Origin: Homarus americanus
Taxonomy: Eukaryota; Arthropoda; Malacostraca; Decapoda; Nephropidae
Direction of reading: 5' to 3'
Assembly (NCBI RefSeq): GCF_018991925.1
Contig: NW_024737042.1
Coordinates: 17,007,678 to 17,071,677, forward strand
Length of the DNA: 64,000 bases
Of the stretch, positions 18,597-63,884 are shown piece by piece (position 1 is the first letter of the stretch; every line of letters starts with the position of its first letter). A program made the translations under genes and the position numbers. The notes beneath the pieces were generated by a model that was not told the origin of the DNA, searched no databases, and saw nothing but the letters and a program-made list of their open reading frames with translations.

Positions 18597-19463
18597 TTGT
18601 TCATAATCTACATAAACGATCTAGATACTGGGATCAGCAGTGACATAAGCAAGGTTGCGGATGACACCAAAATAGGGCGGCAGATTAATTCAGGGCAGGA
18701 TGCAAATGCATTACAGGAGGATCTAAATAAACTGCAGGGGTGGTCTGAAAAATGGCAAATGAAATTCAACACCAGCAAGTGCAGCGTACTTAATATTGAA
18801 AGAACAAATTCTGTCAATGTATACAGCCTTAACAACATCAACCTTGAGAAGTTGACTTGTGAAAGAGACCTAGGGGTACTTGTAAGCCCGGACCTACGGC
18901 CTAGAAAACAGTGCGTTAATGTTCGAAATAAGGCAAACGGAGTATTGGGTTTTATATCTAGAAGTGTAAGTAATAAGAGTGCAGAGGTTTTATTGCAACT
19001 ATATCTTGCGCTAGTCAGGCCGCACCTCGATTATGCTGTACAGTTCTGGTACCCTTATTATAGAATGGATATCAATTCACTGGCGTCGGTGCAGAGAAGA
19101 ATGACGAAAATGATTCCGGGACTTAGAAACCTTACCTATCAAGATAGATTAAAGAAACTAAACTTGCATTCCCTAGTTAGACGAAGAGTGCGGGGAAATA
19201 TGATAGAAGTATATAAGTGGGTGAAAGGAACCAATAAAGGAGATATAGAGAAAGTTCGAAAAATATCCGAGCAGGATAGTACTCGTAGCAACGGATTTAA
19301 GTTGGATAAGTTTAGGTTTAGGAGGGAGATAGGAAGGAACTGGTTCACAAATAGGGTGGTAGACGAGTGGAACAAGCTTAGCAACTTTGTAGTAAGTGCT
19401 GGCACGCTGGAGAGTTTTAGAAGGAGGCTAGGTAGATTCATGGGCGATAGAGGTTGGTTGTAA
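18597..19463 (+). CDS. CR1 ORF2 C-terminal RT (288 aa, partial)
   Basis: Open frame from motif B onward. It contains the catalytic C block as VADDTKIG (residues 21-28, where FADD is usual), then the thumb with WSEKWQMKFNTSKC and the C-terminal region typical of CR1 LINEs (HLDYAVQFWYPYYR, RFRREIGRNWFTNRVVDEWN). It ends at a stop just before the CR1 tail. The start is only the first methionine in the open frame; the natural protein begins far upstream. It would be inactive alone. Confidence 0.85.
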   Translation: MFIIYINDLDTGISSDISKVADDTKIGRQINSGQDANALQEDLNKLQGWSEKWQMKFNTSKCSVLNIERTNSVNVYSLNNINLEKLTCERDLGVLVSPDLRPRKQCVNVRNKANGVLGFISRSVSNKSAEVLLQLYLALVRPHLDYAVQFWYPYYRMDINSLASVQRRMTKMIPGLRNLTYQDRLKKLNLHSLVRRRVRGNMIEVYKWVKGTNKGDIEKVRKISEQDSTRSNGFKLDKFRFRREIGRNWFTNRVVDEWNKLSNFVVSAGTLESFRRRLGRFMGDRGWL

Positions 19464-28889: not shown

Positions 28890-31800
28890 TTCCTTTGGCT
28901 CCCCTCCTTTCTGCTCCTGGCTGTCTTCTTTCCGCTCCTGGCTGTCTCCTTTCCTGCTCCTGGCTGTCCTCTCTTCCGCTCCTGTCCTTTTGGCTCTTCT
29001 TCCTTTCGCTCCTGGCTGTTTCTTTCTTTTCCTCTGGCTCCCTGTCTTCCTCTGTTTCTTTCCCTTGTCTTCTTTATGTTTCTTTCCTCCTGGCTGTCTT
29101 CTTTCGCTCCTAGCTGTGGCTGTCTTTCCCGCTCTGTCCTGGCTGTCTTCTTCTTCCTCCTGGCTGTCTTCTTTCTGCTCCTAGCTGTCTTCTTTCTGCT
29201 CCTGGCTGCTCTTCTTTCCCTCCTGGCTGTCTTCTTTCTGTTCCTGGTCTCTTGTCTTCTGTTTCTTCTTTCTGCTGGCTGTCTTCTTTTCTGTCTTCTC
29301 CTGGCTGTCTTCTTTTTCCTCCTGGCTGTCTTCTTTCTGCTCTTCTGGTTTGTCTTCTTTTCTGTCTCTGGCTGTCTTCTTTCTGCTCCTGGCTGTCTTC
29401 TTTCTGCTCCTGGCTGTCTTCTTTCCCTTTCTGCTGTTCCTTTCCCTCTGGCTGTCTTCTTTCTGCTCCTGGCTGTCTTCTGTCCACTCCTGCTGTCTTC
29501 TTTCCGCTCCTGGCTGTTTCTTTCCACTCTAGCTGTCTTCTTTCCGCTCCTGGTTTGTCTTCTTTCCGCTCCTGGGTGTTTCTTTCCCTCCTGGCTGTCT
29601 CTTTTCTGTCTCCTAGCTGTCTTCTTTCCGCTCCTGGCTGTCTTCTTTCCGCTCTCCGCTGTCTTCTTTCCCGCTCCCTGGCTGTCTTCTTTCCGCTCCT
29701 GGCTGGTCTTCCTTTTTCCTGTCTTCTCTGGCTGTCTTCTTTCTTCTGTCTTGGCTGTCTTCCCGCTCCTGGCTGTCTTCTTTCCGCTCCTGGCTGTCTA
29801 GCTGTCTTCTTTCTGCTCTGGCTGTCTTCTTTTCCTGGCTGTCTTCTTTCTGTCCTGGCTGTCTTCCGCTGGCTGTCTTCTTTCCTCCTGTCTTTTTTTC
29901 TTTCTGCTCCTTTCTGCTCCTGGCTGTCTTCTTTTCACTTCTGGGTGTCTTCTTTTCTCTCCTGGCTGTCTTTCTACTCCTGTCTTCTTTCCTCTCTGGC
30001 TGTCTTCTTTCCGCTCCCTCCCTGTCTTCTTTCTGCTCTGCTGTCTTCTTTCCGCTTCCTGTTTTTCTTTTCCTTCCTCTTTCCTGGCTGTCTTCTTTCC
30101 ACCTCCTGGATGCCTCCTTTATACCCTCCTGTCTTTTTTCCCTCCTGGTTGCTGTTTGTCTTTCTTTCCGCTCCTGGCTGTCTTCTTTTCCGCTCTGGAT
30201 GCTTCTCCTCTTTTACCCCTCTTCTGTCTTTTTTTTTTTTGCTCTTACCTGTCTTCTTTCCGCTTCTGGTTTTCTTTCCGTCTCCTGGTTGTTTTTCTTT
30301 CCACCTGGTAGTCTTCTTTCTGCTCCTGGTTGTTTCTTTCTGCTCTGGCTGTCTCTTTCCCCCTGATGCTCCCTTTATGCCCTGGCTTGTCTTTTTCCGC
30401 TCCTGGCTGTCTTCTTCCGTCTTTTGTCTTCTTCCACCCCTGCTGTCTTTCTGTCTGGTTGTCTTCTTTCTGCCCTTGGATGTCTCCCTTCCCGCCCCTG
30501 GATGCCTCCTATTACGCTCCTGCTGTCTTCTTTCTGTCCTGGTTTTTTCCGTCTTCTTTCCGCTCTGGCTGTCTTCTTTCCACTTTCTGGTCTTCTTTCT
30601 TTCCTCTTGCTGTAGTCTTCTTCCGCTGGCTGTCTTCTTCCGCTTCTGGCTGTTTTCTTTCCGCCCTCTGTCTTCTTTCTGCTCCTGGTTGTCTTCTTTC
30701 TGCTGTTGTCTTCTTTCTGCCCTGGCTGTCTCTTTTTCCACCCCTGGATGCCTCCTTTATACCCCTGGCTGTCTTTTTTCCGCTCCTGGCTGTTTTCTTT
30801 CCGCTCCTGGCTGTCTTCTTTCCACCTAGTATCTTCTTTCCGCTCCTGGCTGTCTTCTTTCTGCTCCTGGTTGTCTTCTTTCTGCTCCTGGTTGTCTTCT
30901 TTCTGCTCCTGGCTGTCTCTTTTCCACCCCTGGATGCCTCTTTATACCCCTAGCTGTCTTTTTCCGCTCCTGGCTTGTCTTCTTTCCACCCCTGGTAGTC
31001 TTCTTCCGGCTCCTTCTTTCCGCTCCTGGCTGTCTTCTTTCCCGCCCTGGTTGCTGTCTTCTTTCCACCCTGGTAGTCTTCTTTCCGCTCCTGGCTGTCT
31101 TCTTTCCGCTCCTCTTCTTTGGCTTGTCTTCTTTCCACCCCTGGTAGTCTTCTTTCCGCTTTCTCTGTCTTTTTCCGCTCCTGGCTGTCTTCTTTCCGCT
31201 CCTGGTTGTCTTCTTTCCACCCCTGGTACTCCTGGCTGTCTTCTTTCCACCCCTGGCTGTCTTCTTTCCACCCCTGGTAGTCTTCTTTCCCACCCTGGCT
31301 GTCTCTTCCCTCCTGGCTGTCTTCTTTCCACCCCTGGTAGTTTCCTTTCCTGCCCTGGCTGTCTTCTTTCCCCTGGCTGTCTCCCTGAGTAGTCTTCTTT
31401 CCACCCCTTCCTTCTTTCCACCCCTGGCTGTCTTCTTTCCGCTCCTGGTGTCTTCTTTCCGCCCTGGTGTCTTCTTTCCACCCCTGGTATTGTCTTCTTT
31501 CCGTTTGGCTGTCTTCTTTTCCTCTCCTGGTTGTCTTCTTCCCTTTCTTTCTTCCCTGGTAGTCTTCTTTTCCTGGTAGTCTTCTTTCCGCTCCTGGTCT
31601 TCTTCCCTGGTAGTCTTCTTTCCACCCCTGGCTGTCTTCTTTCCGCTCTGGTTGTCTTCTTTCCACCCCTGGCTGTCTTCTTTCCACTGGTGTCTTCTTT
31701 CCGCCCTGGTGTCTTCTTTCCGCCCTGGCTGTCTTCTTTCCGCCCTGTGTCTTCTTTCCTTTCCTGCTCCTGGTTGTTGTCTTCTTCCACCCCTTAGTCT

Positions 31801-32905
31801 TCTTTCCGCTCTGTTGTCTTTCCGTCTTCTTTCCGCTCCTGCTCCTGGTTGTCTTCTTTCTCTTCTTTCCACTCCCTGGTAGTCTTTCCACCCTGGTTCT
31901 TTCCGCTCCTGTAGTCTTCTTCCACCCCCTGTTTCTTTCCATTTCTCTGTCTTTTTTCGCCCTGGCTGTTTTCTTTCCACCTGGTAGTCTTCTTTCCGTG
32001 GCTGTCTTTCCTCCTGGTATTGTTTTCTTTTCCACCCCTGGTGTCTTCTCCTCTGCTGTTTCTTTCTTTTCCTGGTAGTCTTCTTTTTTTCCGCTGGCTT
32101 TGTGGCTTCTTTCCGGTGGTTGTTCTTGTCTTTCCTGGTTGTCTTCTTAGTCTTCTTTCCACCCCAGTCTTCTTCCCTCATGGTAGTCTTCTTCCGTTCT
32201 GGTTGTCTTCTTTCCACCTGGCTGTCTTTTTCCGCTCCTGGCTGTCTTTCCACTCTGGTCTCTTTCCGTCTTCTTCCTGGTAGTTGTAGTCTTTTTCCAC
32301 CCCTGGTAGCTCTGGTTGTCTTCTTTCCACCTGGCTGTCTTTTTTCCGTCTGCTGTTTTCTTTCACCTGGTGTCTTCTCCGCCCGCTTCTTTCCGTCCTT
32401 TGTCTTTCCACCCCTGGGTCTTCTATGTCTTCTTTCCCGCTCCTGGTTGTCTTCTTTTTCCCTCTGGTAGTCTTCTTTCCACCCCTGGTAGTCTTCTTTC
32501 CGCTCCTGGTTGTCTTCTTTCCGCTCCTGGTTGTTGTCCGCTCCTATCTTTCCACCCTGGCTGTCTTGGCTGTCTTTTCCGCTCCTGGTTGCCTTTTTCC
32601 AGTCCCCCTGGCTCCTTGTCTTCTTCCACCGGTCTTCTTTCCACCTGGTAGTCTTCTTTTCCACCCCTGGTAGTCTTCTTTCCGCTCCTGGTTGTCTTCT
32701 TTCCGCTCCTGGTTGTCTTCTTTCCGCTCCTGGTTGTCTTCTTTCCACTCCTGGCTGTCTTCTTTCCACCCCTGGTAGTCTTCTTTCCGCTCCTGGTTGT
32801 CTTCTTTCCACTCCTGGTTGTCTTCTTTCTGCTCCTGGTTGTCTTCTTTCTGCTCCTGGTTGTCTTCTTTCTGCCCTTGGATGTCTCCCTTCCGCCCCTG
32901 CTTCG
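28890..32905. repeat. 4-kb minisatellite of 21-bp pyrimidine-rich units
   Basis: About 190 unit lengths built on TCTTCTTTCCGCTCCTGG plus CTG. Common variants replace CGCTCC by TGCTCC, CACCCC or CGCCC, and GGCTG by GGTTG or GGTAG. A longer variant with GGATGCCTCCTTTATACC is concentrated at 30.1-30.95 kb. The plus strand is almost free of A. Because 21 is a multiple of 3 and the unit has no stop in several frames, very long spurious ORFs arise, up to 661 codons on the minus strand, reading ERRQPGA or KKTARSG repeats. Frequent units of 17-20 or 22+ bp move the frame, which argues against selection on protein. Confidence 0.95.
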
Positions 32906-35934: not shown

Positions 35935-36594
35935 CTACAGTGTATGGTCCTTCCCATGGATTCTACAACTTGGATGACCGACCCTTTTTCCGCAGAGGGT
36001 TATACAGCCAGACCTTATCACCGTCCTTGTAAAAGACCTGGCTTGCTTTGACATCATGGTTGCTCCTCGAACTTGATGGTGGACATCAGTTAACCTTTCT
36101 TGGTGGCTTTTGACGTAATTGGTGGTTTCTTCAGGTAGTTCTTCATCAGGTGGTCTTCCTGTCAGCAAGTTCACTGGTAGCCGCAGTTCGTGAGCCAGCG
36201 TAGGTTTTACCGTTGTGTATCCAGTTGACTCGAGGGCAGCTAACAGATATGCCATCAGCAGAGCAGGAAGTTTCTGGTCCCATTCTGTCTGCCCCTCAGC
36301 ACAATATTTGGCGAGTTCTTGTGCCAAGGTCCAATCAAAAATTTCCACCATTCCGTCTGACTGTGGCCGAAGTGGAGTGGTCCTAGCCTTCCTTATGCCC
36401 AATAGTTTACAGCACTCGCTGAAAACAGCTGACTCAAAGTTTTTGCCCTGGTCCAAGTGCAACTTGTGTGGCACACCAAACCGGCAGAAGAACTGGTCCA
36501 TCGGGACCCTGGCAACAGTCGTGCCTTCCTGATTTGGGATGGTATAGGCTTCTGGCCACTTAGTGAAGTAATCTATGGCCACACAGATGTACAC
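35935..36594 (-). CDS. Gypsy integrase catalytic core (219 aa fragment)
   Basis: The DD(35)E triad is visible: D8 in AIDYFTKWPEAY, D48 in LHLDQGKNFES and E84 in DGMVEIFDW, with exactly 35 residues between D48 and E84. It inserts the cDNA copy into the genome. The frame opens abruptly at the junction with the TIR element at 36592. The C-terminal third (after about residue 165) drifts out of the original frame. In related proteins VERFNR is usual where IFDW is seen. Confidence 0.85.
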   Translation of the reverse strand: MYICVAIDYFTKWPEAYTIPNQEGTTVARVPMDQFFCRFGVPHKLHLDQGKNFESAVFSECCKLLGIRKARTTPLRPQSDGMVEIFDWTLAQELAKYCAEGQTEWDQKLPALLMAYLLAALESTGYTTVKPTLAHELRLPVNLLTGRPPDEELPEETTNYVKSHQERLTDVHHQVRGATMMSKQARSFTRTVIRSGCITLCGKRVGHPSCRIHGKDHTL

Positions 36595-37236: not shown

Positions 37237-38886
37237 TTAAATAACACGTCCTATTTTAGTGTCATCAGCAAATTTACTTATGTTGCTGTCTATGCCGATA
37301 TCTATGTCGTTTATGTATATAATAAATAATAATGGTCCAAGTACTGAGCCCTGGGGAACTTCACTAGTGACGTTGCTCCAATGGGACTTAGTGCCGTTAA
37401 TGCTCACTCGCTGTTTCCTGTCCTGTAACCACGCCCTAATCCATTTAAGGATATTACCTTTGATGCAGTGTGCTTCTACCTTTCTAATTAGTCTTTCGTG
37501 GGGGACTCTGTCGAAGGCTTTGCTAAAGTCGAGATATACCACATCATAATTGTGCCCTTCGTCCACCGATTCGAAAACTGATGAAAAGAATGTTAATAGA
37601 TTAGTTAGACATGAACGCCCGCTTGTGAAGCCATGTTGGGAATCATTGATCAACTCGTGCTTCTCCAGGTGGTTTCGAATATAGCTTGAATTGATTGATT
37701 CAAGTAATTTGCCTACTATTGATGTTAGGCTGATTGGGCGGTAGTTAGAGGATAGTGATCTATCCCCCTTCTTGAAAATCGGTATTACATTCTCTATCCT
37801 CCAGGATTCTGGTACTACACCTGTATTTAAGGACATGTTAAACAACTTTGCTAAGGGCATACTAAGCTCTTCCTTACATTCCTTTAATACTCTGGCAAAT
37901 ATCGCATCGGGACCAGGTGACTTATTAGGCTTTAGTTTATCTATTTGCTTACTAACATCGCTACTAATCACTACTCTCTCGCTTAATTTGTTTTCTTCAC
38001 TATCTCTGAAAAGAGTCGGTGCCTCGGGTATCATGTTTACATTTTCGGTGGTGAAAACTGTTGAAAAATATTTATTCAAATTATTGCTCATTTCTCCGTC
38101 GTTGTCAGTGAGCTCACCGGTATCTGACCGTATTGGTCCAATCTTTTCTCGTGTTTTAGTTTGATACATTTGGTAGAATCCTTTGGGGTTTGTCTTCGCC
38201 TCCCTTGCTATCCTTACCTCATTATTCCTCTTGGCTTTCCTTATCTCGGTTTTAACCCTACTCGCCAATACCTTATTATAATCCTGGAGGTAAATTTCGC
38301 CATGATTTATCCTTCTACCTATAGCCTTCCTTTGGCCAATGATGTTCTTAAAATAATTATTTATCCATTTAGGGTCATTGTTGTCTGATCTGAGTTTTTT
38401 GCATGGTATGTTCTGCCTTTGTGCATTAAGTAACTCATTATTTAAATTGTCGTGGAACTCGGCTATCTCAGATCTCGTTACCAGGTCGGTGTCATCTGTC
38501 AGGTTCACGCCCACGCGCGACACCCCTTCTCCTAGCTGCCTCTTTAAACTGTCAAAGTTTGCCCTTCTGAAATCTGGTACTTTAGTGGAATTTTCCTTAC
38601 GTCTGCCCTGAAAGTCTAACTGGAATCTAATTTCTTTGTGATCGCTGTTTGCAAGTTCGTTCCCTACCTCGACATTGCTAATGAGGTTTTCTCTGTTCGA
38701 CAGAACTAAATCGAGTATATTACTACCCCGGGTGTGTTTGGTTATATGTTGCCTTAGGAAACAGTCCTGGATCGTTTCGAGAAAATCTTCTGATTCTGAG
38801 TTACCCGTAAGGTCAGTCCAATCTATTTGGCCAAGGTTAAAGTCGCCTACTATACAGACTTTGTTGTGTATGGAAGCCCTGCGCAT
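37237..38886 (-). CDS. CR1 copy 2 ORF2: endonuclease C-term plus RT (549 aa)
   Basis: The longest meaningful ORF in the window. Endonuclease: GDFN at residues 14-17 and the catalytic SDH at 81-83. After a linker come RT blocks: [60 protein letters not shown] (motif A), [14 protein letters not shown] (motif B, E where G is usual) and FADD at 539-542. It stops a few codons later because of the deletion. The frame is open upstream to the 5' truncation near 39010, so the listed methionine is internal. Target-primed reverse transcription would be its role; this copy lacks part of the endonuclease and the thumb. Confidence 0.9.
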
Positions 38887-39367
38887 TTCATCCCAGATAA
38901 GTCTCTCATTGACTCTATCAAGATTGGGAGGTCTATATATTACTCCTGTGATTAATTTTTCCCTACCGTCGATTAATTCTATCCAAATTGTTTCTGTATT
39001 CCGCTCAGTGTTGTGAAGTCACTAAAAAAAATGTATCGTGCATATATTCTCTCAAATATTACATCATGAACTGCTATTCGTACAATCTAGCGAAGCTTCG
39101 AGCTACCACATTGCACCACTAAGCGATGGGTCGGAGGGGGGGGGGGACGTTCGGTATGAAGCCAAGGCTACGACTTCCATAGAGTCAGGAGTAGGGGTAG
39201 AGGGTGCATCGAAACTATGGCGCGTAAGGGTACCTATTCCTATCTGCAGTGAGTGGCAAAGGTCCCTCAATATCCACTGCGACCCACTCCATTGGTGCGC
39301 CTGCATGGTACAACTGCAGTGGGGCATGCGTGTGTAGGTTTGGTCCCTTCTTGGCGTAGCAGACATC

Positions 39368-47126: not shown

Positions 47127-47471
47127 CAGAAATTTTAATGTAATATTTAGAGACGTTAGAACAAAAATGACCGATCTGCCGAACAGGGAAACATAAGTAG
47201 GCCAGGCTGAAACACTCATGCCTCGTGGCGAGTTAAAACAAAAGCCCCCAAGCAACGTCCTCAGTCAGGGGGTGGAAGCATTTTGAACGAGGCCTATAGA
47301 AATTTAAATGTACCTCATCGAATTAATGTAGACACGATTCATGAAGTTAAGGGACAATTCTAAAATTAAAGTTATTGTGGATAGTTTCCCAGTTCTAAAT
47401 ATTTTACGTGTGTCCCAAAGAAACAATTAGATAGGACTTTTTGTGTAAGAGATAGGAAACGTAGGACTAGG

Positions 47472-47912
47472 GTGTGTTTTCCTGGGGCTGGGATAGGGCA
47501 TGTAGCTGAGAGGATAGATAGAGTTTTGTCAGGGGAGGGTACCAATCCAGTAGTGTGTCTTAGTGTGGGAGGAAACGACATAGGAAAGGTTAGGAGTGAG
47601 GAACTTTTCAAGAGGTATAGGGAGGCGCTGGGAAAGATTAGAGATAGGGGAGGGATCCCGATAGTATGTGGTGTCTTGCCTAGAAGAGGGGTTGGTCGTG
47701 AATGGCTGTCCAGGGCAAATGCTATAAATTGCCGACTGGAAAAACATTGTGCAAACAATGGTTGGGCATTCATTGATAACTGGCAACGATTCTATGGCAA
47801 CGACTACCTGTACAGTCGTGACGGAGTACACTTGTCTCGTGCGGGGGTAAAGACGTTGTTTGCATCCCTGGAGCGTGAAATTGTTACTCCAAAGGGGGGG
47901 TTTCGCCAGTAG
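47472..47912 (+). CDS. CR1 ORF1, SGNH/GDSL esterase-like (146 aa)
   Basis: Carries VVCLSVGGNDIGKV (block III, GGND at residues 33-36), VCGVLPRRGVG, and SRDGVHLSRAGVKTLF with the catalytic DxxH at 117-120. These are hallmarks of the SGNH hydrolase domain known from ORF1 of CR1-group LINEs. The nucleophile block (GDSQ-like) should lie just upstream; at 47375-47395 only a degraded VDS.F is readable in another frame, so the N-terminus is broken. The listed methionine is internal. Its role in retrotransposition is not settled. Confidence 0.82.
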   Translation: MCFPGAGIGHVAERIDRVLSGEGTNPVVCLSVGGNDIGKVRSEELFKRYREALGKIRDRGGIPIVCGVLPRRGVGREWLSRANAINCRLEKHCANNGWAFIDNWQRFYGNDYLYSRDGVHLSRAGVKTLFASLEREIVTPKGGFRQ

Positions 47913-48017
47913 AGAGAGGTCGGGGTAAGTGGGAGTCAAAAAACAAGCTGGTCCTGGTAAGTAATATTAGTTACTCAGGAAAGGGTAAAACAGGACCAGG
48001 GAAGGGTAGGTATAAAT

Positions 48018-49115
48018 GTATACTATACAAACAGTAGGAGCGTTAGAAATAAAATAGACTTGCTGAGAGCGGTTGTATGTACCGAGAATGTAGACATCAT
48101 AGCAACCACCGACACTTGGATGAATCTGGCGAGCAAAAATTTTTTATCAGAGTACCACATAGAAGGGTACAACCTTTTTCACAACGACAGGGAAGATAGG
48201 AAGGGGGGAGGGGTCGCACTCTTCGTCAAGGATACATTAAAATGTTGTATTAATAATTCAATAAAGGATGAAATAGGAACCCAGTCTGTATGGGTAGAAA
48301 TCACGGAAGGAAGAGAAAAACTACTTATGGGAGTGATTTACAGGCCTCCAAGTCTTGGGAAGGAAGCAGCTCAGCCCATATGGCAGGAAATGAATAGGGC
48401 AGCAAAATATAACAATCTGTGCATTATGGGGGATTTCAACTTCAGAAATATTGACTGGGACAACATTGTAGGTGACTATGAATCTGAAGACTTCCTAGAT
48501 GCAGTACAGGACAATTTTTTGAAACAACTAATTACAGAATCTACTAGAGGTGACAATATATTAGACCTAGTATTAACAAATGAAGAAAAAATTATCAGAG
48601 ATATCACAGAAGGGGAAGAACAAGGTAACAGTGATCACAGAGAAATCAGGTTCACCCTAAATTGGAAAACGAAAAACAATGACAATATGGTCAGAGTCCC
48701 AAACTTTCGGTTGGCGGATTATCAGGGGTTAAGAAGGTACCTAGGTGAGGTCACCTGGGAACAGTCACGTCAGTCACCAGTAGGAAGGGGTGAGGTCATA
48801 GATGACACAACAATTGATCATGACTATAATATATTCACTAGTATACTACATAAAGCACAAGAACAAAATATACCATACATAAAAATTAGGTCAAATAAGA
48901 ATGAGCCAAGGTGGATGACCAGAAAACTTAAACATGACATAGGAATAAAGAAAGGAATATATAAGAAATTAAAGGGAGGGGAGGAGCAGCTCAGAAATAG
49001 GTATAACGAACTATCTAGGAATGTTAAAAAAATTGTAAGGAAAGCAAAGAGAGACTATGAAGTCAAAATAGCAAGAGAATCCAAGGCGAATCCCAACGGA
49101 TTTTTCCAGGTATAG
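48018..49115 (+). CDS. CR1 copy 3 ORF2, endonuclease domain
   Basis: Open from VYYTNSRSVRNKID (48018) to TAG at 49113. Numbered from 48060: ATTDTW at 15-20 (Asp where the catalytic Glu of ETW is usual), GGGVALFVKD near 49-58, GVIYRPP, GDFN at 124-127 and the catalytic NSDHREI at 190-196. Then comes the spacer toward RT. This is an EEP-type endonuclease that makes the first nick at the target. No ATG lies near the start of homology, so the initiation site is unclear. The terminating TAG sits where copy 1 has a Tyr codon, so it is a nonsense mutation in an otherwise continuous ORF2. Confidence 0.88.
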   Translation, partial: VYYTNSRSVRNKIDLLRAVVCTENVDIIATTDTWMNLASKNFLSEYHIEGYNLFHNDREDRKGGGVALFVKDTLKCCINNSIKDEIGTQSVWVEITEGREKLLMGVIYRPPSLGKEAAQPIWQEMNRAAKYNNLCIMGDFNFRNIDWDNIVGDYESEDFLDAVQDNFLKQLITESTRGDNILDLVLTNEEKIIRDITEGEEQGNSDHREIRFTLNWKTKNNDNMVRVPNFRLADYQGLRRYLGEVTWEQSRQSPVGRGEVIDDTTIDHDYNIFTSILHKAQEQNIPYIKIRSNKNEPRWMTRKLKHDIGIKKGIYKKLKGGEEQLRNRYNELSRNVKKIVRKAKRDYEVKIARESKANPNGFFQV

Positions 49116-49166
49116 AGAACAAAAGTCAAGGACAAAGTTGGGCCCTTAAAGTCAGGGAGGGGAGAA

Positions 49167-50168
49167 GTGATAAATGGCAGTGCAGAAATAAGCAAAGCAT
49201 TGAACAGCTACTTCTTATCAGTTTTCACAGAGGAAATTTGCGATGAAATTCCAGAGGTGGAACTGATATTTAAGGGAAAGGAAGAAGAGAAATCATTAGA
49301 CACCGGAGTTGTGCCAGACTTGTGGAAACAGGCAAATGTAGTACCCATATTCAAAAAGGGAGACAGAGCATCAGCGTCAAATTACCGGCCAATCAGTTTG
49401 ACGTCAGTAGTGGGGAAATTTCTTGAATCAATTATAGCAGATAACATCCGATCGCATTTAGAGAAAAGCAAATTAATCTACGACTCTCAACATGGGTTTA
49501 CAAAGGGAAAATCTTGTGTAACAAATCTGCTGACATTTTTTAGGAAAGTCTTCGAGATAGTAGATAATGACGAAAATTACGATGTTATTTACTTAGACTT
49601 TAGCAAAGCATTTGACAGAGTACCGCATCAGAGGCTTCTGAGAAAAATTATGGCTCATGGTATCGAGGGGAAAGTTTTAAATTGGATAAAATCATGGCTC
49701 ACCGAGAGAACGCAGAGGGTCAGCGTAGATGGTGTTAAATCTGAGTGGGGTCGTGTAACCAGTGGGGTTCCCCAGGCGTCAGTACTAGGCCCACTCTTGT
49801 TCATAATCTACATAAACGATATAGATACTGGGATCAGCAGTGACATAAGCAAGTTTGCGGATGACACCAAAATAGGACGGCATATTAATTCAGGGCAGGA
49901 TGCAAATGCAATACAGGAGGATCTAAATAAACTGCAGGGGTGGTCTGAAAAATGGCAAATGAAATTCAACACCAGCAAGTGCAGCGTACTTAATATTGGA
50001 AGAACAAATTCTGTCAATGTATACAGCCTTAACAACATCAACCTTGAGAAGTCGACTTGTGAAAGAGACCTAGGGGTACTTGAAGCCCGGACCTACGGCC
50101 TAGAAAACAGTGCGTTAATGTTCGAAATAAGGCAAACAGAGTATTGGGTTTTATATCTAGAAGTGTAA
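49167..50168 (+). CDS. CR1 copy 3 ORF2, reverse transcriptase
   Basis: Same frame as the endonuclease, resumed after the nonsense codon. Residues from 49167: [15 protein letters not shown] 73-87, QHGFTKGKSCVTN 108-120, [13 protein letters not shown] 142-154 (motif A), [14 protein letters not shown] 199-212 (motif B, Ala where Gly is usual) and FADD 230-233 (motif C). The block normally containing KSPGPDGI is missing: sequence passes from GKEEEKS to LDTGVVPDLWKQ without it. The last 30 residues are out of the natural frame after a one-base loss near 50083. Confidence 0.88.
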   Translation: MINGSAEISKALNSYFLSVFTEEICDEIPEVELIFKGKEEEKSLDTGVVPDLWKQANVVPIFKKGDRASASNYRPISLTSVVGKFLESIIADNIRSHLEKSKLIYDSQHGFTKGKSCVTNLLTFFRKVFEIVDNDENYDVIYLDFSKAFDRVPHQRLLRKIMAHGIEGKVLNWIKSWLTERTQRVSVDGVKSEWGRVTSGVPQASVLGPLLFIIYINDIDTGISSDISKFADDTKIGRHINSGQDANAIQEDLNKLQGWSEKWQMKFNTSKCSVLNIGRTNSVNVYSLNNINLEKSTCERDLGVLEARTYGLENSALMFEIRQTEYWVLYLEV

Positions 50169-50659
50169 GTATTAAGAGTGCAGAGGTCTTATTGCAACTA
50201 TATCTTGCACTAGTCAGGCCGCACCTCGATTATGCGGTTCAGTTCTGGTGCCCTTATTATAGAATGGATATCAATTCACTAGAGTCGGTGCAGCGAAGAA
50301 TGACGAAAATGATTCCGGGACTTAGAAACCTTCCATATGAGGATAGGTTAAAGAAACTAAACTTGCATTCCCTAGAAAGACGAAGAGTGCGGGGAGATAT
50401 GATAGAAGTATTCAAGTGGGTGAAAGGAATCAATAAAGGTGATATAGATAAGGTTCTTATAATATCCGAGCAGGATAGGACTCGGAAAAACGGATTCAAG
50501 TTGGATAAGTTTAGGTTTAGGAGGGAGATAGGAAGGAACTGGTTTACAAATAGGGTGGTGGACGAGTGGAACAAGCTTAGCAACCTTGTAGTAAGTGCTG
50601 GAATGCTGGAAAGTTTCAAAGGGAGGCTGGATAGATTCATGGATGATATAGAGTGGTAG
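50144..50659 (+). CDS. CR1 copy 3 ORF2, C-terminal region (171 aa)
   Basis: Continues ORF2 in the shifted frame: LLQLYLALVRPHLDYAVQFW, QRRMTKMIPGLRNLPY, LERRRVRGDMIEVFKWVKG and RFRREIGRNWFTNRVVDEWN, then a stop 75 bp before the tail. Very similar to the end of copy 1. Confidence 0.87.
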   Translation: MGFISRSVSIKSAEVLLQLYLALVRPHLDYAVQFWCPYYRMDINSLESVQRRMTKMIPGLRNLPYEDRLKKLNLHSLERRRVRGDMIEVFKWVKGINKGDIDKVLIISEQDRTRKNGFKLDKFRFRREIGRNWFTNRVVDEWNKLSNLVVSAGMLESFKGRLDRFMDDIEW

Positions 50660-51561: not shown

Positions 51562-51855
51562 ATATTACGGTAGGGTGTTTCATAGGAGGAAAGATCAGCT
51601 AAAACTAATGGCCCATCACTTTTTTGGTAGATTTTAGTGTATATAAACAGAAAATAATTTCAGTTTCAATATTTTGCAACCTTTTGCTAGGTAAATTTTA
51701 GCGTGAAATTTATCGAAAATCTAACGTACAGCTGCATTAGTGCATTACAATTAAATAGTGAACATTGCTTTCTGACTTCATTCTTTAACAACCCATCTAA
51801 CAATATTTTTTTCTGTTTCAGATTCTGATGCATTTATAAGTTGATAATATTTGCG

Positions 51856-52080
51856 ATGGCTGCTTGTGTCAGGACGAGGAACCAAAAATCCAGCCATCTC
51901 AGTCACTATCTTGGGTCTGGGAGAGAGCTCCTGAAGTCGGAGTTGCCTACATTGAGAGATGCTTTGAGATACGGTGTTTTAATCAGGCAAATCAGTGAAA
52001 AGAACCAAAGAACTTACACAAACAAAGACATTGCCAGTGATATGACCAAAAGCTGTCTTGGCACAGTACACTCTGGCTAA
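51856..52080 (+). CDS. DDE-like element protein, N-terminal segment
   Basis: Begins at the ATG at 51856 (MAACVRTRNQKSSHLSHYLG) and contains SELPTLRDALRYGVLIRQIS and TNKDIASDMTKSC, a helical DNA-binding-like region. A frameshift near 52050 moves the continuation (YTLANAQFKPPVI) into the next frame. A pyrimidine tract followed by CAG at 51805-51822 looks like a 3' splice site just upstream, so a small 5' exon is possible. Confidence 0.6.
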   Translation: MAACVRTRNQKSSHLSHYLGSGRELLKSELPTLRDALRYGVLIRQISEKNQRTYTNKDIASDMTKSCLGTVHSG

Positions 52081-52408
52081 CGCTCAGTTCAAGCCTCCAG
52101 TCATAACAAGTCAGAAGATTAGTGAGAGACTGCTAGCCAGTTGGGAAAAGGCAAGAGATATCTCTCTTGGGAGAGGAAAACTTGCAGTTAAGGACAGCTT
52201 TGCCAAGCAACTGGACCAGTTATTTGACATAATTACTTGCAAGTGCCCAATTGTTCTCTGTCCTGAGTTTGGATGCGATCGTGACTGTAAATCCGAGGCC
52301 CACATCTCCTGTATTTGCAAGCGTGAACTGAAGATTCCTGATCGAACTGGCATTTGTCAAAGCACAGAGAGAGAAGACTGGCAGTATAGGGGCTCTCATG
52401 ATTTCTAG
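52058..52408 (+). CDS. DDE-like element protein, Cys/His-cluster segment
   Basis: Continues from the previous frame: ISERLLASWEKARDISL, then FDIITCKCPIVLCPEFGCD and CKSEAHISCICKREL. Six Cys occur before AHISCIC, a CKC-x4-C-x4-C-x3-C...H-x2-C-x-C pattern that could bind zinc. It ends with KIPDRT before drifting out of frame. I recall this CKC...HIxC pattern followed by KIP from uncharacterised arthropod proteins but cannot verify it here. Confidence 0.6.
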   Translation: MAQYTLANAQFKPPVITSQKISERLLASWEKARDISLGRGKLAVKDSFAKQLDQLFDIITCKCPIVLCPEFGCDRDCKSEAHISCICKRELKIPDRTGICQSTEREDWQYRGSHDF

Positions 52409-52612
52409 CCAAGATATTCCGGAGTCCAAGAGACAGGAGCTGCCACAGAGAGACAGAGAGGAGAAAGAGTTGCCGAGGAAAGAGACTTGAGAAGGCTCAG
52501 GGTGAGGTAAAAAGGCCGATGATTGGAGTCAAGCTGATTCAGAGTTTAATGACATGGCTGATCCGAGAGTGCTGACCAGGAGAATGGTGACTTTGTCCCT
52601 AACAGAAAAATA

Positions 52613-53314
52613 ATGATCCCAAACCTTCCAGGCATAAGATTCGAAATAGGAAAGATATCGAGCATAGCTCTGGCCAGCATGCGACACCACACTGGTCTCA
52701 GAGAAACTGCAGAGATAGCAACAGCTGCCTGGATTGACGGTGGTTTGATAACACCTGATGATGTTCACCTGGTGATAGATCATAACAAAGTAAGGAGAGC
52801 TCAGGAGAAACTTGTCAGTAACCTAGAAGAGGAGTTTGATAAGGGGATAAGAGAAAATGGAATCAATTGTTTGTTCTTTGATGGGAGAAGGGATGACACT
52901 AAAGTGTTCATGAAAGTTGGAGATTCTGACAAGTTGTTCCCTGCCATGGTGAAGGAGGAACACTACTCCTGCTGCAGTGAACCAGGAGGGAAGTATTTGT
53001 GGCATTTCACTCCAGAGAAAGATGACATCAGGAAACCAGCTGAGATAGTGGCAGATAACATTGTGAACTGGCTCAGAGAGAGGAACGTAGACCAGACCCT
53101 GCAGGCCATTGGAGGGGACAGCACCAACACGAACACAGGGTGGCAAGAGGGGGTCATACAGTGGATAGAGCGGAAGATTGGGAGGAAGCTGGTCTGGATT
53201 GTTTGTGACCTCCACACCAACGAGTTGCCACTCAGACATCTGATCCAGGAGCTGGATGGCAAGACTCTTTCAAACCAGAGCAAGATGCTGGACTCTGCCA
53301 CTGAGTTAAAGTAA
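52613..53314 (+). CDS. DDE-like element protein, catalytic segment 1 (233 aa)
   Basis: LFFDGRRDDTK gives a first Asp (residue 90, codon 52880-52882). EEHYSCCSEPGGKYLWHFTP follows. AIGGDSTNTNTGW holds a second Asp (residue 169, codon 53117-53119). VWIVCDLHTNELPLRHLI includes C198-x2-H201, the C/DxxH motif seen in several eukaryotic cut-and-paste transposases including hAT. The spacing D-79-D, the strand-like residues before each Asp and CxxH about 30 residues after the second Asp fit an RNase H fold. The methionine at 52613 is internal; earlier sequence (52420-52610) is frameshifted. Confidence 0.72.
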   Translation: MIPNLPGIRFEIGKISSIALASMRHHTGLRETAEIATAAWIDGGLITPDDVHLVIDHNKVRRAQEKLVSNLEEEFDKGIRENGINCLFFDGRRDDTKVFMKVGDSDKLFPAMVKEEHYSCCSEPGGKYLWHFTPEKDDIRKPAEIVADNIVNWLRERNVDQTLQAIGGDSTNTNTGWQEGVIQWIERKIGRKLVWIVCDLHTNELPLRHLIQELDGKTLSNQSKMLDSATELK

Positions 53315-53601
53315 ATCCGAGCTTTTGAAAAAAAATGCAGTTGGCCCTCCACTCTGTTGAGCTTGCACATACTGTCGTGACTGACCTGAGTGCAGCCAGT
53401 ACTATGGATTTACATGATTTGCAGTGCCATCAAAACTGGGGTCATGCCTGATAGACTTGCTTACCTGCAGATAGGTCCAGTCTCACATTCTAGGTGGCTC
53501 ACAACGGCTCTCAGGTTCTGCAGAATTTGGTGTCTTTCATAAACTGAAGGGAGACCAGCTTCACAACCTGAGACTTATTATCAATTCATCGTGGTGTCTA
53601 C

Positions 53602-54228
53602 TTGCCAAATTGGTTCAACACCAAGGTCAAGTCATCGTTCTCCGAAGGTCCGAGGCATGTTCTCTTCCAGCTTGAGCTCCTGAGGAGTCAGCCAAGGAAG
53701 GTTGTTCAGATTGTGGAGCAGACTGTGAGGAGATCTTCCTGGTATGCTCATCCTGAGGCAGTTCTGCAGACAATGCTCTGCAGTAAGGATGAGAGGAGAG
53801 AAGAGTGGCAGTCAAAAAAGATCTTGGATATGAGACTTATGAGAGGATCTGGGCATGACGAATCAGTTGGTGACGATTCCTTCAGGGTCAGGAAGACTCC
53901 TGAAGTCAATCTAGGTGCCAAGACCCTCACTGATCTCATAGATCTGGATAACATCCAGGCTGGCAGTGAGCCCCCTCTTACCTGCAGCCTCACCAATGTT
54001 CAAGTCAGAGCTTTCCTGGACAACCCCATGCATGTCCCTGCCTGGCCCTCGCACACCCAGAGTATAGAGCGTTGTGTACAGCAAGTGAGCGAGGCCAGCA
54101 GTCATGTGTACAGCCAGGAGAGGAGGGAAGGCTACATCCGAGCTCAGGTGGTCAGCAGGGAGGTAATGAGTAGAAACAGAAGCAAGAAAGACATGTTGTC
54201 TATGGTGTGCAGCAACACCGGGTCGTAG
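53602..54228 (+). CDS. DDE-like element protein, catalytic segment 2 (208 aa)
   Basis: After a broken stretch (53315-53600) the protein resumes with LPNWFNTKVKSSFSEGPRHV, a helical insertion-domain-like region, SEPPLTCSLTNVQVRAFL and PAWPSHTQSIERCVQQVSEA. E156 (codon 54067-54069) in HTQSIER is a good candidate for the third acidic residue, about 317 residues after the second Asp, leaving room for an insertion domain as in hAT. It ends with SREVMSRNRSKKDML and a stop about 340 bp before the right TIR. Confidence 0.7.
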   Translation: MPNWFNTKVKSSFSEGPRHVLFQLELLRSQPRKVVQIVEQTVRRSSWYAHPEAVLQTMLCSKDERREEWQSKKILDMRLMRGSGHDESVGDDSFRVRKTPEVNLGAKTLTDLIDLDNIQAGSEPPLTCSLTNVQVRAFLDNPMHVPAWPSHTQSIERCVQQVSEASSHVYSQERREGYIRAQVVSREVMSRNRSKKDMLSMVCSNTGS

Positions 54229-54599
54229 TAGTAAAACCGGTTTTTGTATTTGATGATTTTGTTTTCTAAAGGAATATTAAATTTAATAAATGTGTCAAGA
54301 TCATTCGTTTCACTATTCTGGATCATTTTCATCCTAATAAATTAACCTGATACATTTACTTTACTTTAAATAAGCTATTTAGTGGTGTTGGTAAAAGGGT
54401 GGGAATACCGAATTTTCATAAGATATCAAGTTAAAATTTACCTAGCAAAAAATAAAAACTTTTCAAATCTGAAGATATCACATGATTCTGCACATAGAAC
54501 TACATCATTAAAACCATGGGCCGATTTTTCAAACTCAAAAAAAAAAATTCGCCTCCGTATGTCACACCCTAATATTACGGGTGTTGGTGGAGAAATTCA

Positions 54600-57679: not shown

Positions 57680-59160
57680 TTTACTGGGAGGTAAGTGGTG
57701 GTGTGGGATTAGTGTGGGAGATAAGTGGTGGTGTGGGAGTAGTGTGGGAAGTAAGTGGTGGTGTAGGAGTAGTATGGGAGGTAAGTGGTGGTGTGGGAGT
57801 AGTGTGGGAGGTAAGTGGTTGTGTGGGAGTAGTGTGAGAGGTACGTGGCGGTGTGGGAGTAGTGTGGGAGGTAAGTATTGGTGTGGGAGTAGTGTGGGAG
57901 GTTAGTGGTGGTGTAGGAGTAGTGTGGGAGGTAAGTGTGGGAGGTAAGTGGCGGTGTGGAGGTGGTGGTGTGGTGGTGTGGTGGTGTGGGCTGGAGTGTG
58001 TGGGAGTGTGGTGGTGCGGGAGTGGTGTGGGAAGTAAGTGGTGGTGTTGGGAGTGGTGTGGGAGGTTAGTGGCAGTGTGGAAGTGGTGTGGGAGGTAAGC
58101 GGCGGTGTGGGGTAGTGTGGGAGGTAAGTGGTACTGTGGGGTAATGTGGGAGTAAGTGATTTGGAAGTAGTGTGGGAGTAAGTGGTGGGAGTAAGGTGGT
58201 GGGGTATGGGGAGTGGTGTGGGAGTATGGGGCAAGTGGCGGTGTGGGGTAGTGTGGGAGGTGGGGTGGTGGTGTGGAAGGTAAATGGCGGTGTGTAGTGA
58301 GTGGTGGTGGTGGTGGTGGAGGGTAGTGTGAGAGGTGGTGGAGGTGTGGGAGGTGTGAGAGGTGTGGCGTGGTGTGGGGTAGTGTGGGAGGTTAGTGGTG
58401 GTGTGGGGAGAAGTGTGGGAGGTACGTGGCGGTGTGGGAGGTAAATGGTGGTGTGGGAGTGGTGTGGGAGGTGGGCGATGTGGGAGTAGTGTGGGAGGTT
58501 AGTGGTGGTGTGGGAGAAGTGTGGGAGGTACGTGGCGGTGTGGGAGTAGTGTGGTAAGTAAGTGGTGGTGTGGGGTGGTGTGGTAAGTAAGTGGTGGTGT
58601 GGGAGTGGTTGGGGAGTAAGTGGCGATGTGGGAGTGGTGGGGGTACGTGGCGGTGTGGGAGTAGTGTGGGGAGGTTGAGTGGAGGTGTGGGATGTGGGGA
58701 GGTACGTGGCGGTGTGGGAGGTAAATGGTGGTGTGGGAGTAGTGTGGGAGGTAAGTGGTTGTGTGGGAGTGGTGTGGGAGGTACGTGGCGGTGTGGAAGT
58801 GGTGTGGTGTGGTGGTGGTGTGGGGAGTGGTTGGGAGGTAGGTGGCGATGTGGGAGTGGTGTGGGGAGGTTAGTGGTGGTGTGGGAGATGTGGGAGGTAC
58901 GTGGCAGTGTGGGAGTAGTGTGGTAAGTAAGTGGTGGTGTGGGAGTAGTGTGGGAGGTAAGTGGGTGTGTGGTGTGGGGTGGTGTGGGTGGGAGGTAAGG
59001 GGGTGTGTGGTGTGGGGCAGTGTGGGAGGTAGGTGGTGGTGTGGGAGTAGTGTGGGATGTAAGTGGCGGTGTGGGAGTAGTGTGGGAGGTAAGTGGCGGT
59101 GTGGGAGTAATGTGGGAGGTTGGTATTCGTTCGGGAGTAGTGTGGGAGGTAATTGGTGAT
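57680..59160. repeat. 30-bp minisatellite with GGTAAGT in most units
   Basis: About 45-50 units built on GTGTGGGAGGTAAGTGGTGG plus TGTGGGAGTA. There are frequent shortened or rearranged units, especially between 57960 and 58400. G/T-rich on the plus strand. Long minus-strand frames (TSHTTPTPPL repeats) are artefacts of a unit length divisible by three. Confidence 0.93.
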
Positions 59161-59475
59161 GTGTGAGGTAAGCGGCGTTGTGTGAGGTAAGTGGTATTGT
59201 GTAAGGTAATTGATGTTTTGGGAGGTAAGTGGTGTTGTGTGAGGTAAGTGGCGTTGTGTGAGGTAAGTGGCGTTGTGTGAGGTAAGTGGCGTTGTGTGAG
59301 GTAAGTGGCGTTGTGTGAGGTAAGTGGCGTTGTGTGAGGTAAGTGGCGTTGTGTGAGGTAAGTGGAGTTGTGTGAAGTAAGTGGCGTTGTGTGAGGTAAA
59401 TGGTGTTGTGTGAGGTAAGTGGCGTTGTGTGAGGTAAGTGGTGTTTTGGGAGGTAAGTGGTGGAGTGGGAGGTTC
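59160..59475. repeat. 19-bp minisatellite derived from the 30-bp unit
   Basis: About 16 units of GTGTGAGGTAAGTGGCGTT, highly uniform at 59235-59400. It shares GAGGTAAGTGG with the preceding array and probably arose from it by deletion and local amplification. Confidence 0.94.
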
Positions 59476-59985: not shown

Positions 59986-59986
59986 C

Positions 59987-60990
59987 AGTCACCAGGTCCC
60001 GATGAGATATTTGCCAGAGTATTAAAGGAATGTAAGGAAGAGCTTAGTATACCCTTAGCAAAGTTGTTTAACATGTCCATAAAAACGGATGTAGTACCAG
60101 AATCCTGGAGGATAGCGAATTTAATACCGATTTTCCAGAAGGGAGATAGATCACTATCCTCTAACTACCGTCCAATCAGTTTAACATCAATTGTAGGCAA
60201 ATTTTTGGAAGCAATAATTTCAAACTCTATTCGAAATCATCTGGAGAAGCACAAGTTGATCAATGATTCCCAACATGGCTCCACAAGCGGGCGTTCATGT
60301 CTAACTAATATATTAACATTCTTTTCAACTGTTTTCGAATCAGTGGACGAGGTGCACGACTATGATGTGATATATCTCGACTTTAGCAAAGCCTTCGACA
60401 GAGTCCCCCACGAAAGACTAATCAGAAAAGTGGAGGCTCATGGCATTGAAGGAGATATTCTAAAATGGATTAGGGCGTGGTTACAGGACAGGAAACAGCG
60501 GGTGAGCATTAACGGCACTAAATCCGATTGGGGCAACGTCACTAGTGGAGTACCCCAAGGCTCAGTACTTGGACCATTATTATTTATTATATATATAAAC
60601 GACGTAGATATCGGCGTAGACAGCAACATAAGTAAATTTGCTGATGACACTAAAATAGGGGGTGTAATTAAATCTGACGAGGACTCCGCAAAACTAGAGG
60701 AAGATCTAAATTTGTTTTTCGAATGGTCTGAAAAATGGCAGATGAAATTCAATGTGGACAAATGTGAAGTACTCAGTCTAGGAGATGTAAACAGAGTAAC
60801 CGGATACCAGATGAACAAAGATGTTATAGAGAAATCCGACTGCAAGAAAGATTTAGGAGTTATGATAAGTAGGAATCTTAAGCCAAGTAAACAATGTGTA
60901 TTTGCTCGAAACAAGGCTAATAAAGTACTTGGGTTCATACAAAAGAGGGTTAGTTACAGGACTAGCGAGGTTATCCTAAAACTATATCTG
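59987..60990 (+). mobile_element. CR1-type LINE, copy 4 (both ends lost)
   Basis: Starts at TCACCAGGTCCCGATGAG, corresponding to the SPGPDEIFARVL part of ORF2, and ends at AAACTATATCTG, before the conserved HLDYAVQFW block. The left end abuts LINE-C and the right end is cut by a Gypsy LTR. Same subfamily as copy 2, and it retains the thumb segment that copy 2 lost. Confidence 0.87.
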
Positions 60991-61065
60991 TATGTATATT
61001 ATGTATGCTGTATGTATATTATGTATGTGCTCCATTTATATACATTATTTATTCAGCCTAGCTAG
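60064..61065 (+). CDS. CR1 copy 4 RT domain (333 aa)
   Basis: Unbroken RT core: [49 protein letters not shown] (motif A), [15 protein letters not shown] (canonical motif B), KFADDTKIG (motif C) and WSEKWQMKFNVDKCEV (thumb). The last 25 residues (after LKLYL) come from the Gypsy LTR and are not part of the protein. The open frame extends upstream of the listed methionine to 59987. It is one of the least damaged RTs here but lacks endonuclease and C-terminus. Confidence 0.87.
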   Translation: MFNMSIKTDVVPESWRIANLIPIFQKGDRSLSSNYRPISLTSIVGKFLEAIISNSIRNHLEKHKLINDSQHGSTSGRSCLTNILTFFSTVFESVDEVHDYDVIYLDFSKAFDRVPHERLIRKVEAHGIEGDILKWIRAWLQDRKQRVSINGTKSDWGNVTSGVPQGSVLGPLLFIIYINDVDIGVDSNISKFADDTKIGGVIKSDEDSAKLEEDLNLFFEWSEKWQMKFNVDKCEVLSLGDVNRVTGYQMNKDVIEKSDCKKDLGVMISRNLKPSKQCVFARNKANKVLGFIQKRVSYRTSEVILKLYLYVYYVCCMYIMYVLHLYTLFIQPS

Positions 61066-61880: not shown

Positions 61881-63240
61881 ATGAGTCAGTCGGAGGACAG
61901 CTCAGCAGAGATGGATGACCAGGCTAAACAGGACGCTCCAGCTCCCACCACATCGCGCAGCCCTTCACCTCGATCTTCAGCGTTGTCTTCAGAGATAATT
62001 GCTTTAATGAAGTTTATGGGGGATGAAAGGCGTCACGACTTTGCTAAAAGACGTGTGTGAGGATGAAGAAAGAAGGCAATCTGAGGCAGAGAGAGACCAC
62101 AAACGGAGATTGAAAGACAGTGCACGGTTTGAAGCTTTGATATCTTGCCTCACTGTTAACCAAGCCCCTGGCTCTAACACTGCCTCGGTATCGACTGGTT
62201 CAGATACCTCATCAATGCTTTCTTCACGTCCCCCAGCCCCACCTAAAGCGGCTGCTCAAACACCGCCCATCTTGAAGCCTGACGTGAATTTCCAGACTTT
62301 TCGTGAATGGCGGCGACGGTGGACTGATTATGCTACAATGGTGGATCTCCAGAGCTTGTCACAGCCTAAACAACTTATTCAGCTGCGTATGTGCCTGTCC
62401 TTGGAAACTCAACGTGTCTTGGAACATACGTTGCACGTACCTCCGACCTCTTCGTTATCTGTAGAGGAGGTACTGGATATTCTACAACGGCACATCAAAG
62501 GGCAGTGGAACGAAGCTCTATGCAGGAGGGAATTGTTTAGCTGCAGACAGATGGAGGGCGAGACTTTTGATGCCTTTTATGTACGACTCAAGAGAGCCTC
62601 GGAAGAGGTAGATATAAGCCCAGGTAACCACCAGCAGTGCGAGGAGACCCAGTTGAAGCAGGTGATCCTGATGGGTGTTAAGGACGAGGAGCTTGTCCAA
62701 CGCCTCACCTCCCTCGACTCTTCCTCTTCTCTTAAGGATGTGTTGACGATATGTCGCTCCTATGAGGCTCCAGGTGTGCCACCTCTGCCATCCGAGCTCC
62801 CCCTACAGCTGTACGCGCTGTATCCTGGTACAAGAAGGACAAGAAGTCTATTTCAACGCCTTCGCCCACCACGCCCACGCCCGGTTCCTTTTGTAACAAC
62901 TGTGGTAAGCAGCACGGAACACATGTGTGTCCAGCTGCTGAGTCTACCTGCTACAGTTGTGACCGTAAGAGCCACTGGTCACTCACAGTACGGTGCCCAG
63001 CCAAATGCATCCAGTGCAATGTGTGCAGTCGTCTGGGCCATTACGACAAGTGTTGCCCTACCAACAAACCCAAGGGACAGCGTCGGCGGAAGCTTCAGCG
63101 CCCTTCCACCAGTGAGGGCCGCCCACAGTCTTCCAATCAGAAGCATGACGACCCTGGACAACGCTCGAGCCATATTAGGAAGGTGTACTCCCCCTCGCGT
63201 CTCAGGACCAAAGTTCCCAAGCACATCAGCGTCATCGTGA
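61881..63240 (+). CDS. Gypsy gag
   Basis: The natural start is probably the ATG at 61881 (MSQSEDSSAEMDDQAKQ), whose frame stops near 62057. A slip in GTGTGTG near 62055 shifts it into the 62023-63240 frame, which carries the gag core: SVNF-like FQTFREWRRRWTDYATM, LRMCLSLETQRVLEH, ILQRHIKGQWNEALCRRELF and SCRQMEGETFDAFYVRLKRA. This is the retrotransposon gag (capsid-like) region that packages the RNA. After about 62815 the coding signal moves to another frame (zinc knuckles), so the last 140 residues of this ORF are not real. Confidence 0.82.
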
Positions 63241-63884
63241 CCTACGGCAGTGTGTCATCCCGTCTTCAGATGTTACCCGACACCGGCGCTGATGCTACAG
63301 TCATCGGTCCCCAGCATTTGCAATGCTTGGGGCTCTCTCCAAGTGACCTAGGACCGCCCCCCAAGGATCTCCGCTTCACGGCAGATGGTTCACAGATGGC
63401 CCCAGCCCTAGGTTCACTCCAAGCACAGGTCACCTTTGGCAACAGGTCGTGTCAAGCCTGGATTGATGTGCATAATGGTGTCCCAACTCCTTTGCTGTCC
63501 TACAGACATTGTCAAGAGTTGGCCATCATCTCCCAGGGCTTCCCTAAACCTATTCTCGAGGTAAAACACGCCAACAGTGTGCACGAAGGGAGCAGCAACT
63601 ATCCTGCTGTCGCCCTACCCCTGCCTCTTGCCAGTGACACCTCTCCTTCAGATGCTCGGAAGTACTTCCTGAAGGAATTCAGCGACGTTCTGGTGACCAA
63701 GTCCGCTCTGGAATCCAAGCCTCTCAAGAAGATGGTAGGCCCCCCCCATGAGGATCCACTTGAGGGACGACGCGAAGCCCTTCGCTATCTACACCCTTCG
63801 ACTGGTCCCCCTGGCCTTCCGCGATGCGGTCAAAAACGAGCTGGACTCCATGGTCGCCCAAGAAATTATTGCACCAGCCGGTGA
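62925..63884 (+). CDS. Gypsy zinc knuckles and aspartic protease (319 aa)
   Basis: Just upstream of the listed start the frame has FCNNCGKQHGTHVCPA; then CYSCDRKSHWSLTVRC and CNVCSRLGHYDKCC (residues 31-44, a perfect CX2CX4HX4C). Protease: LQMLPDTGADATVIG with active-site DTG at 119-121, and PALGSLQAQVTFGN plus LLSYRHCQELAI downstream, ending with the FLKEFSDVLVTKSALE lead into RT. At 63733-63741 a run of eight C marks another frame change. RT sequence (KNELDSMVAQEIIAPAG, PMVVVAKPKGGVRITPDLSK) then follows in the next frame to the window end. Confidence 0.87.
   Translation: MCPAAESTCYSCDRKSHWSLTVRCPAKCIQCNVCSRLGHYDKCCPTNKPKGQRRRKLQRPSTSEGRPQSSNQKHDDPGQRSSHIRKVYSPSRLRTKVPKHISVIVTYGSVSSRLQMLPDTGADATVIGPQHLQCLGLSPSDLGPPPKDLRFTADGSQMAPALGSLQAQVTFGNRSCQAWIDVHNGVPTPLLSYRHCQELAIISQGFPKPILEVKHANSVHEGSSNYPAVALPLPLASDTSPSDARKYFLKEFSDVLVTKSALESKPLKKMVGPPHEDPLEGRREALRYLHPSTGPPGLPRCGQKRAGLHGRPRNYCTSR

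Follow-up and report, generated by a model that had tools for sequence, protein, structure and literature searches.

A decayed, probably hATm-type DNA transposon copy in Homarus americanus, with 8- and 9-bp target-site duplications among its genomic relatives

To which group of transposons belongs a 3,001-bp element with short inverted ends and a DDE-like protein, located in a 64,000-nt stretch of the Homarus americanus genome (the window; NCBI RefSeq assembly GCF_018991925.1, contig NW_024737042.1, positions 17,007,678 to 17,071,677 of the forward strand, counted here from its first letter)? A sequence-only reading had described it as a complete terminal inverted repeat (TIR) element that was unplaced and formed a distinct lineage, perhaps a deep relative of hAT. 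We conclude that positions 51571-54571 hold a full-length copy, now decayed, of what is probably a hATm-type transposon, a placement made by its ends and target-site duplications.

The element is flanked on both sides by the 9-bp sequence ATATTACGG, which occurs only twice in the window when both strands are searched, with each copy adjoining one element end. Pairing between the two ends extends for about 20 bp (TAGGGTGTTTCATA-GGAGG / TAGGGTGTGACATACGGAGG), and TAGGGTGTGTCATAGGAGG is the left-end reading in 13 of 17 aligned copies. A 40-bp local alignment of the ends scores 23, compared with a 99th percentile of 18 for 1,419 equally spaced pairs of window positions, but the maxima of both controls are higher (58 for the window pairs, 27 for 2,000 shuffles), and the ends alone are thus just moderately unusual. 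An inner inverted block, located about 110-160 bp inward of each end, reaches a score of 51, whereas none of 1,000 shuffles exceeds 32. Inverted ends, 9-bp duplication and inner block all lie where the sequence-only reading had put them.

The borders were settled by genomic copies, as 35 of 39 start and stop at the same ends (both present, within two bases), in agreement with the description as a complete TIR element. Copies were taken from two genome searches, with the right and the left end, each with 40 listed matches and 2 copies common to both; comparison of the two match lists by coordinates gives at least 78 genomic places matching the element. The listed right-end matches stop at base 3001 in 39/40 cases and at 2999 in one, while the left-end matches begin at base 1 in 37/40, at base 4 in two and at base 14 in one, and no homology was seen to run past the ends, which the earlier reading had named as an observation that would speak against it. 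All 39 right-end matches other than the element itself were examined as copies. Duplications were counted in 36 elements (35 copies and the window element), leaving out L022, L023, L030 and L045, in which the left end is missing or starts past base 3. A perfect 9-bp duplication was present in 18 of the 36 and a perfect 8-bp duplication in seven, with no perfect duplication in the remaining 11, all with both ends (L009, L010, L017, L018, L021, L024, L026, L032, L038, L040 and L042); L010 and L038 have an 8-bp and L042 a 7-bp duplication, each with two mismatches. In a second sample of eight copies on long contigs, drawn from 38 new left-end matches, two lacked the right end in the stretch examined, and the six with both ends comprised one with an 8-bp duplication, one with 9 bp, one with 9 bp and a mismatch, and three with none. 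Those measured among the 11 copies without a perfect duplication are little diverged, and missing duplications in such young copies may possibly reflect recombination between copies or assembly joins. A further left end of the same family was observed about 6 kb past the window end (G000:C19182:17077690-17077974, minus strand).

These ends and duplication lengths are those of hATm. Passages of the report proposing hATm as a fourth hAT family (PMC6004678) give its termini as TAGGGTG and CACCCTA, with duplications of 8 or 9 bp in 28 members, and describe a well supported clade separate from Ac, Buster and Tip with more than 74 Repbase entries. The termini 5′-TAGGGTG and CACCCTA-3′ are present in the window and in the copies, the 7 and 18 perfect duplications have the two hATm lengths, and the hosts are likewise animals. 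The class has also been applied, as DNA/hAT-hATm, in a passage on the giant isopod (PMC9107163). Membership of hATm was rated most likely because the ends and duplications are those of this group, and the labels 'unplaced' and 'distinct lineage' were not supported by the comparison of ends and duplications, since hATm already has a name and shares these ends, the kind of match that the earlier reading had said would refute it.

The pattern within the duplications was assessed in the 25 perfect duplications, which yield 50 half-sites when the two strands are pooled. Position 1 is A or C in 39/50, position 2 is T in 47/50, position 3 is A or G in 45/50 and never T (0/50), and position 4 is C or T in 38/50. 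All seven perfect 8-bp duplications fit nTnnnnAn, the target preference given for Hermes in a passage of PMC10368747, while the 9-bp duplications have T at position 2 in 16/18 and A at position 8 in 17/18. The simplest reading of this 8/9-bp pattern would be a pair of inverted half-sites for which either of two spacings is allowed. No such half-site rule was found in the hATm literature passages, and it may still be published elsewhere. When the flanks of three copies with 9-bp duplications (L027, L033 and L043) are joined and a single duplication copy is kept, they align without gaps over 200 bp to related, uninterrupted stretches of the window, as expected of empty sites; in matches within other examined loci, the number of gap positions ranges from 0 to 9.

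The coding region runs through three frames, with shifts close to 52050-52062 and inside the intervals 52330-52560 and 53530-53593, and with several in-frame stops; it is, judged from sequence, a decayed form of one open frame of about 800 codons. The sequence-only reading had proposed a DDE-like protein and listed DGRRDD, GGDSTNTNTG, CDLHTNELPL and HTQSIER in it; all four were found in the window translation, with CDLH forming a CxxH motif. The two D residues it named are 79 apart, the same distance as between D347 and D426 of P0091, an intact relative of 801 residues that shares 91.8% identity with the intact copy L013. Conservation was counted in alignment A2 of 67 chosen members, with the members spanning each residue as denominators. 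The D, D, C, H, W and E are kept across the family, with C, H and W located between the second D and the E, which are 323 residues apart; a catalytic role is presumed for the two D and the E. The Cys-rich module claimed near the N terminus was likewise borne out, its four Cys being widely kept (P0091 numbering: C129 60/63, C131 59/63, C153 61/64, C155 61/64), and most members have a second Cys/His set within it. A structure predicted for window positions 52049-52342 has a mean predicted local distance difference test (pLDDT) score of 86.7.

Searches for relatives gave 90 at E ≤ 0.01 among 298 candidates and 105 at E ≤ 0.001 with 7,995 candidates scored, none of those listed carrying a precomputed Pfam domain. 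The named relatives are from Hydra vulgaris, Helobdella robusta, Scylla paramamosain (the closest named match for the transposase), Diabrotica virgifera and Daktulosphaira vitifoliae, and the majority are unnamed, which bears out the earlier mention of arthropod and cnidarian homologues without a name. Five window pieces and P0091 matched no Pfam family at E ≤ 1, thus neither the BED finger nor the THAP domain, and these two were also absent from the best 25 of 55 families for the 67 members; the sequence-only reading had likewise described the BED finger and the hAT C-terminal dimerisation signature as absent. NCBIfam gave weak unrelated matches below cut-off, sequence searches of solved structures gave one weak match in one search and four weak unrelated ones in another, and a BFVD fold search gave nothing at E ≤ 0.001. 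There was no match to phages by tblastn, and viral contigs scanned with one protein and with A2 yielded no confirmed relative (27 A2 pattern matches, none confirmed). A literature text search for peptide and end strings of the element found none.

The predicted fold is of RNase H type with a long helical insert like that of Hermes, and Hermes is the best match to the predicted structure by Z, with the alignment reaching residue 783 (Hermes 609). Hermes also shares with the element a size of about 3 kb, the nTnnnnAn target in 8-bp cases and the order D, D, CxxH, W, E. We take the Hermes residues to be D248 and E572, which would give a spacing of 324 against 323 here. The element differs from Hermes in its mostly 9-bp duplications, a departure from the classical 8 bp of hAT, and in that neither a BED finger nor a C-terminal hAT profile was detected; a BED finger is common among hAT elements but not universal. 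A role for the H and W in Hermes has been described (PMC5225508). The suggested relation to hAT is thus supported by the ends, the target rule and the Hermes-like predicted fold.

Several points would weigh against hATm membership. PF05699 was undetected in the family by profile scans (among the best 25 of 55 families in one of them), whereas the same kind of scan detects it in two hAT remnants of the window; the predicted fold nevertheless aligns with Hermes up to residue 783 (Hermes 609), and the family alignment has an ER motif close to its end. It is also reported for hATm-6 in a passage of PMC6004678, an element whose inverted repeats also differ in length, at 417 and 575 bp compared with some 20 bp here. 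As PF05699 was undetected and the placement was made by ends and duplications, membership was rated short of demonstrated. An alternative is a separate lineage, either sister to hATm and the remaining hAT families or forming a new superfamily, with TAGGGTG ends, 8/9-bp duplications and a protein of its own that has a Cys-rich module and no recognisable hAT C-terminal signature. It would be favoured by the lack of significance in a hAT profile comparison and of any credible transposase match in Pfam, NCBIfam and PDB sequences, where the matches listed were weak and unrelated only. We consider such a lineage unlikely, as the termini and duplication lengths are the same as those of hATm, its target rule is of the Hermes type, Hermes is the best predicted fold match by Z, and a passage of PMC12220107 lists hAT-hATm among putatively active elements in Hydra, a host of this protein family. 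Similarly improbable is a deep hAT sister other than hATm, lacking a recognisable C-terminal signature or BED finger, in which a fixed half-site and tolerance of two active-site spacings would give 8 or 9 bp at each insertion. A new superfamily was rejected as first choice because hATm has the same ends. Membership of the Mutator-like elements (MULE) is very unlikely: 8-9 bp duplications, CxxH and W also occur in these elements, but the second D and E of Muta1 (D283, E419; PMC5225508) are 136 residues apart, no MULE model was among the best 25 of 55 Pfam families, and the target rule and the higher Z of the predicted fold point to Hermes. A P-element relative without THAP finger is less credible still; the P element gave the top Foldseek E-value for the predicted structure (4.6e-4) and PF21788 ('TNP-like, GTP-binding insertion domain') matched weakly (E 0.069) in 1/67 members, but its Z is below that of Hermes and no THAP domain was found in the window pieces, in P0091 or among the best 25 of 55 families for the members. 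A domesticated gene was rejected because there are many copies, ends and duplications are present, and 34/39 copies are broken.

For the family of this element, divergence was measured in 17 sequences, the window element and 16 copies with one unbroken full-length match each, from the first 20 examined. They differ from the majority base at 0.1-2.1% of aligned positions, with a mean pairwise difference of 1.25%. An open frame of 801 residues is present in 4/39 copies and one of 800 in a further copy, with 34/39 lacking an 800-residue frame; in two of the five intact-frame copies the H of HTQSIER is replaced, by D in L014 and by Y in L037. Between any two of the four 801-residue copies, 12-22 codons differ non-synonymously and 3-10 synonymously, as would be expected without selection between copies.

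The window contains other mobile elements. Two hAT transposase remnants, for one of which the closest named match is from Homarus, lie at 6152-6550 (minus strand; PF05699 E 4e-4, just below the curated cut-off) and 7858-8268 (plus strand; E 2.7e-12). A retrotransposon open frame at 37240-39018 (minus) has endonuclease and/or reverse transcriptase by Pfam, and similar frames at 47961-50659, 18468-19463 and 59986-61065 (all plus) by translation likeness only; a GDSL-type esterase domain (47385-47909, plus; PF13472 E 2.3e-12) has such a frame directly downstream. Long terminal repeat (LTR)-type traits were found at 35938-36594 (minus) and 62011-63881 (plus): an integrase core (PF00665 E 5e-11), together with gag-like (PNMA) and aspartyl-protease matches that are weak and fall below cut-off. 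Long minisatellite arrays at 28907-32900 and 57685-59473 show strong strand asymmetry, with several frames open.

Table 1. Positions of the element, its parts and the empty-site matches in the window
Feature	Position	Strand	Basis
hATm-like DNA transposon copy, decayed, 3,001 bp (probable)	51571-54571	+	both ends in 35/39 copies; 9-bp duplication
Target-site duplication ATATTACGG, left	51562-51570	.	same as 54572-54580; 2 occurrences in window
Target-site duplication ATATTACGG, right	54572-54580	.	identical to left copy
Left terminal inverted repeat TAGGGTGTTTCATAGGAGG	51571-51589	+	against 54552-54571: 2 mismatches and one 1-base gap
Right terminal inverted repeat	54552-54571	-	pairs with left end; kept in genomic copies
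Subterminal GGCCCAT (putative)	51610-51616	+	inverted 7-mer partner 54516-54522
Inner inverted block, left arm	51682-51720	+	perfect 19-bp core 51682-51700
Inner inverted block, right arm	54412-54450	-	perfect 19-bp core 54432-54450
Transposase pseudogene	51856-54228	+	ATG at 51856, last stop ends 54228; tblastn with P0091 and other relatives, open reading frame list
Cys-rich module, N-terminal part (CxC ... CxC, then KIP)	52238-52339	+	placed by alignment A3
First presumed catalytic D codon (FDGRRD; D347 of P0091)	52880-52882	+	D 67/67, alignment A2
Second presumed catalytic D codon (GGDST; D426 of P0091)	53117-53119	+	D 67/67, alignment A2
CDLH, CxxH motif (C455, H458 of P0091)	53204-53215	+	C 65/66, H 66/66
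W codon in HSRW (W557 of P0091)	53495-53497	+	W 64/65
Presumed catalytic E codon in HTQSIER (E749 of P0091)	54067-54069	+	E 56/59 spanning members
Empty-site match of L027	50366-50565		91.5%
Empty-site match of L027, second	19167-19366		88.5%
Empty-site match of L033	63142-63341		95.5%
Empty-site match of L043	10168-10367		87%

The element is an ordinary though well preserved example of what is probably a known kind, the half-site rule being the one detail of note, and with its probable placement in hATm the claim of a new superfamily falls away. A recent family with intact transposase genes is added, from a protein group to which the searches assigned no Pfam model, and the half-site rule would provide a simple reason for the two duplication lengths among hATm insertions.
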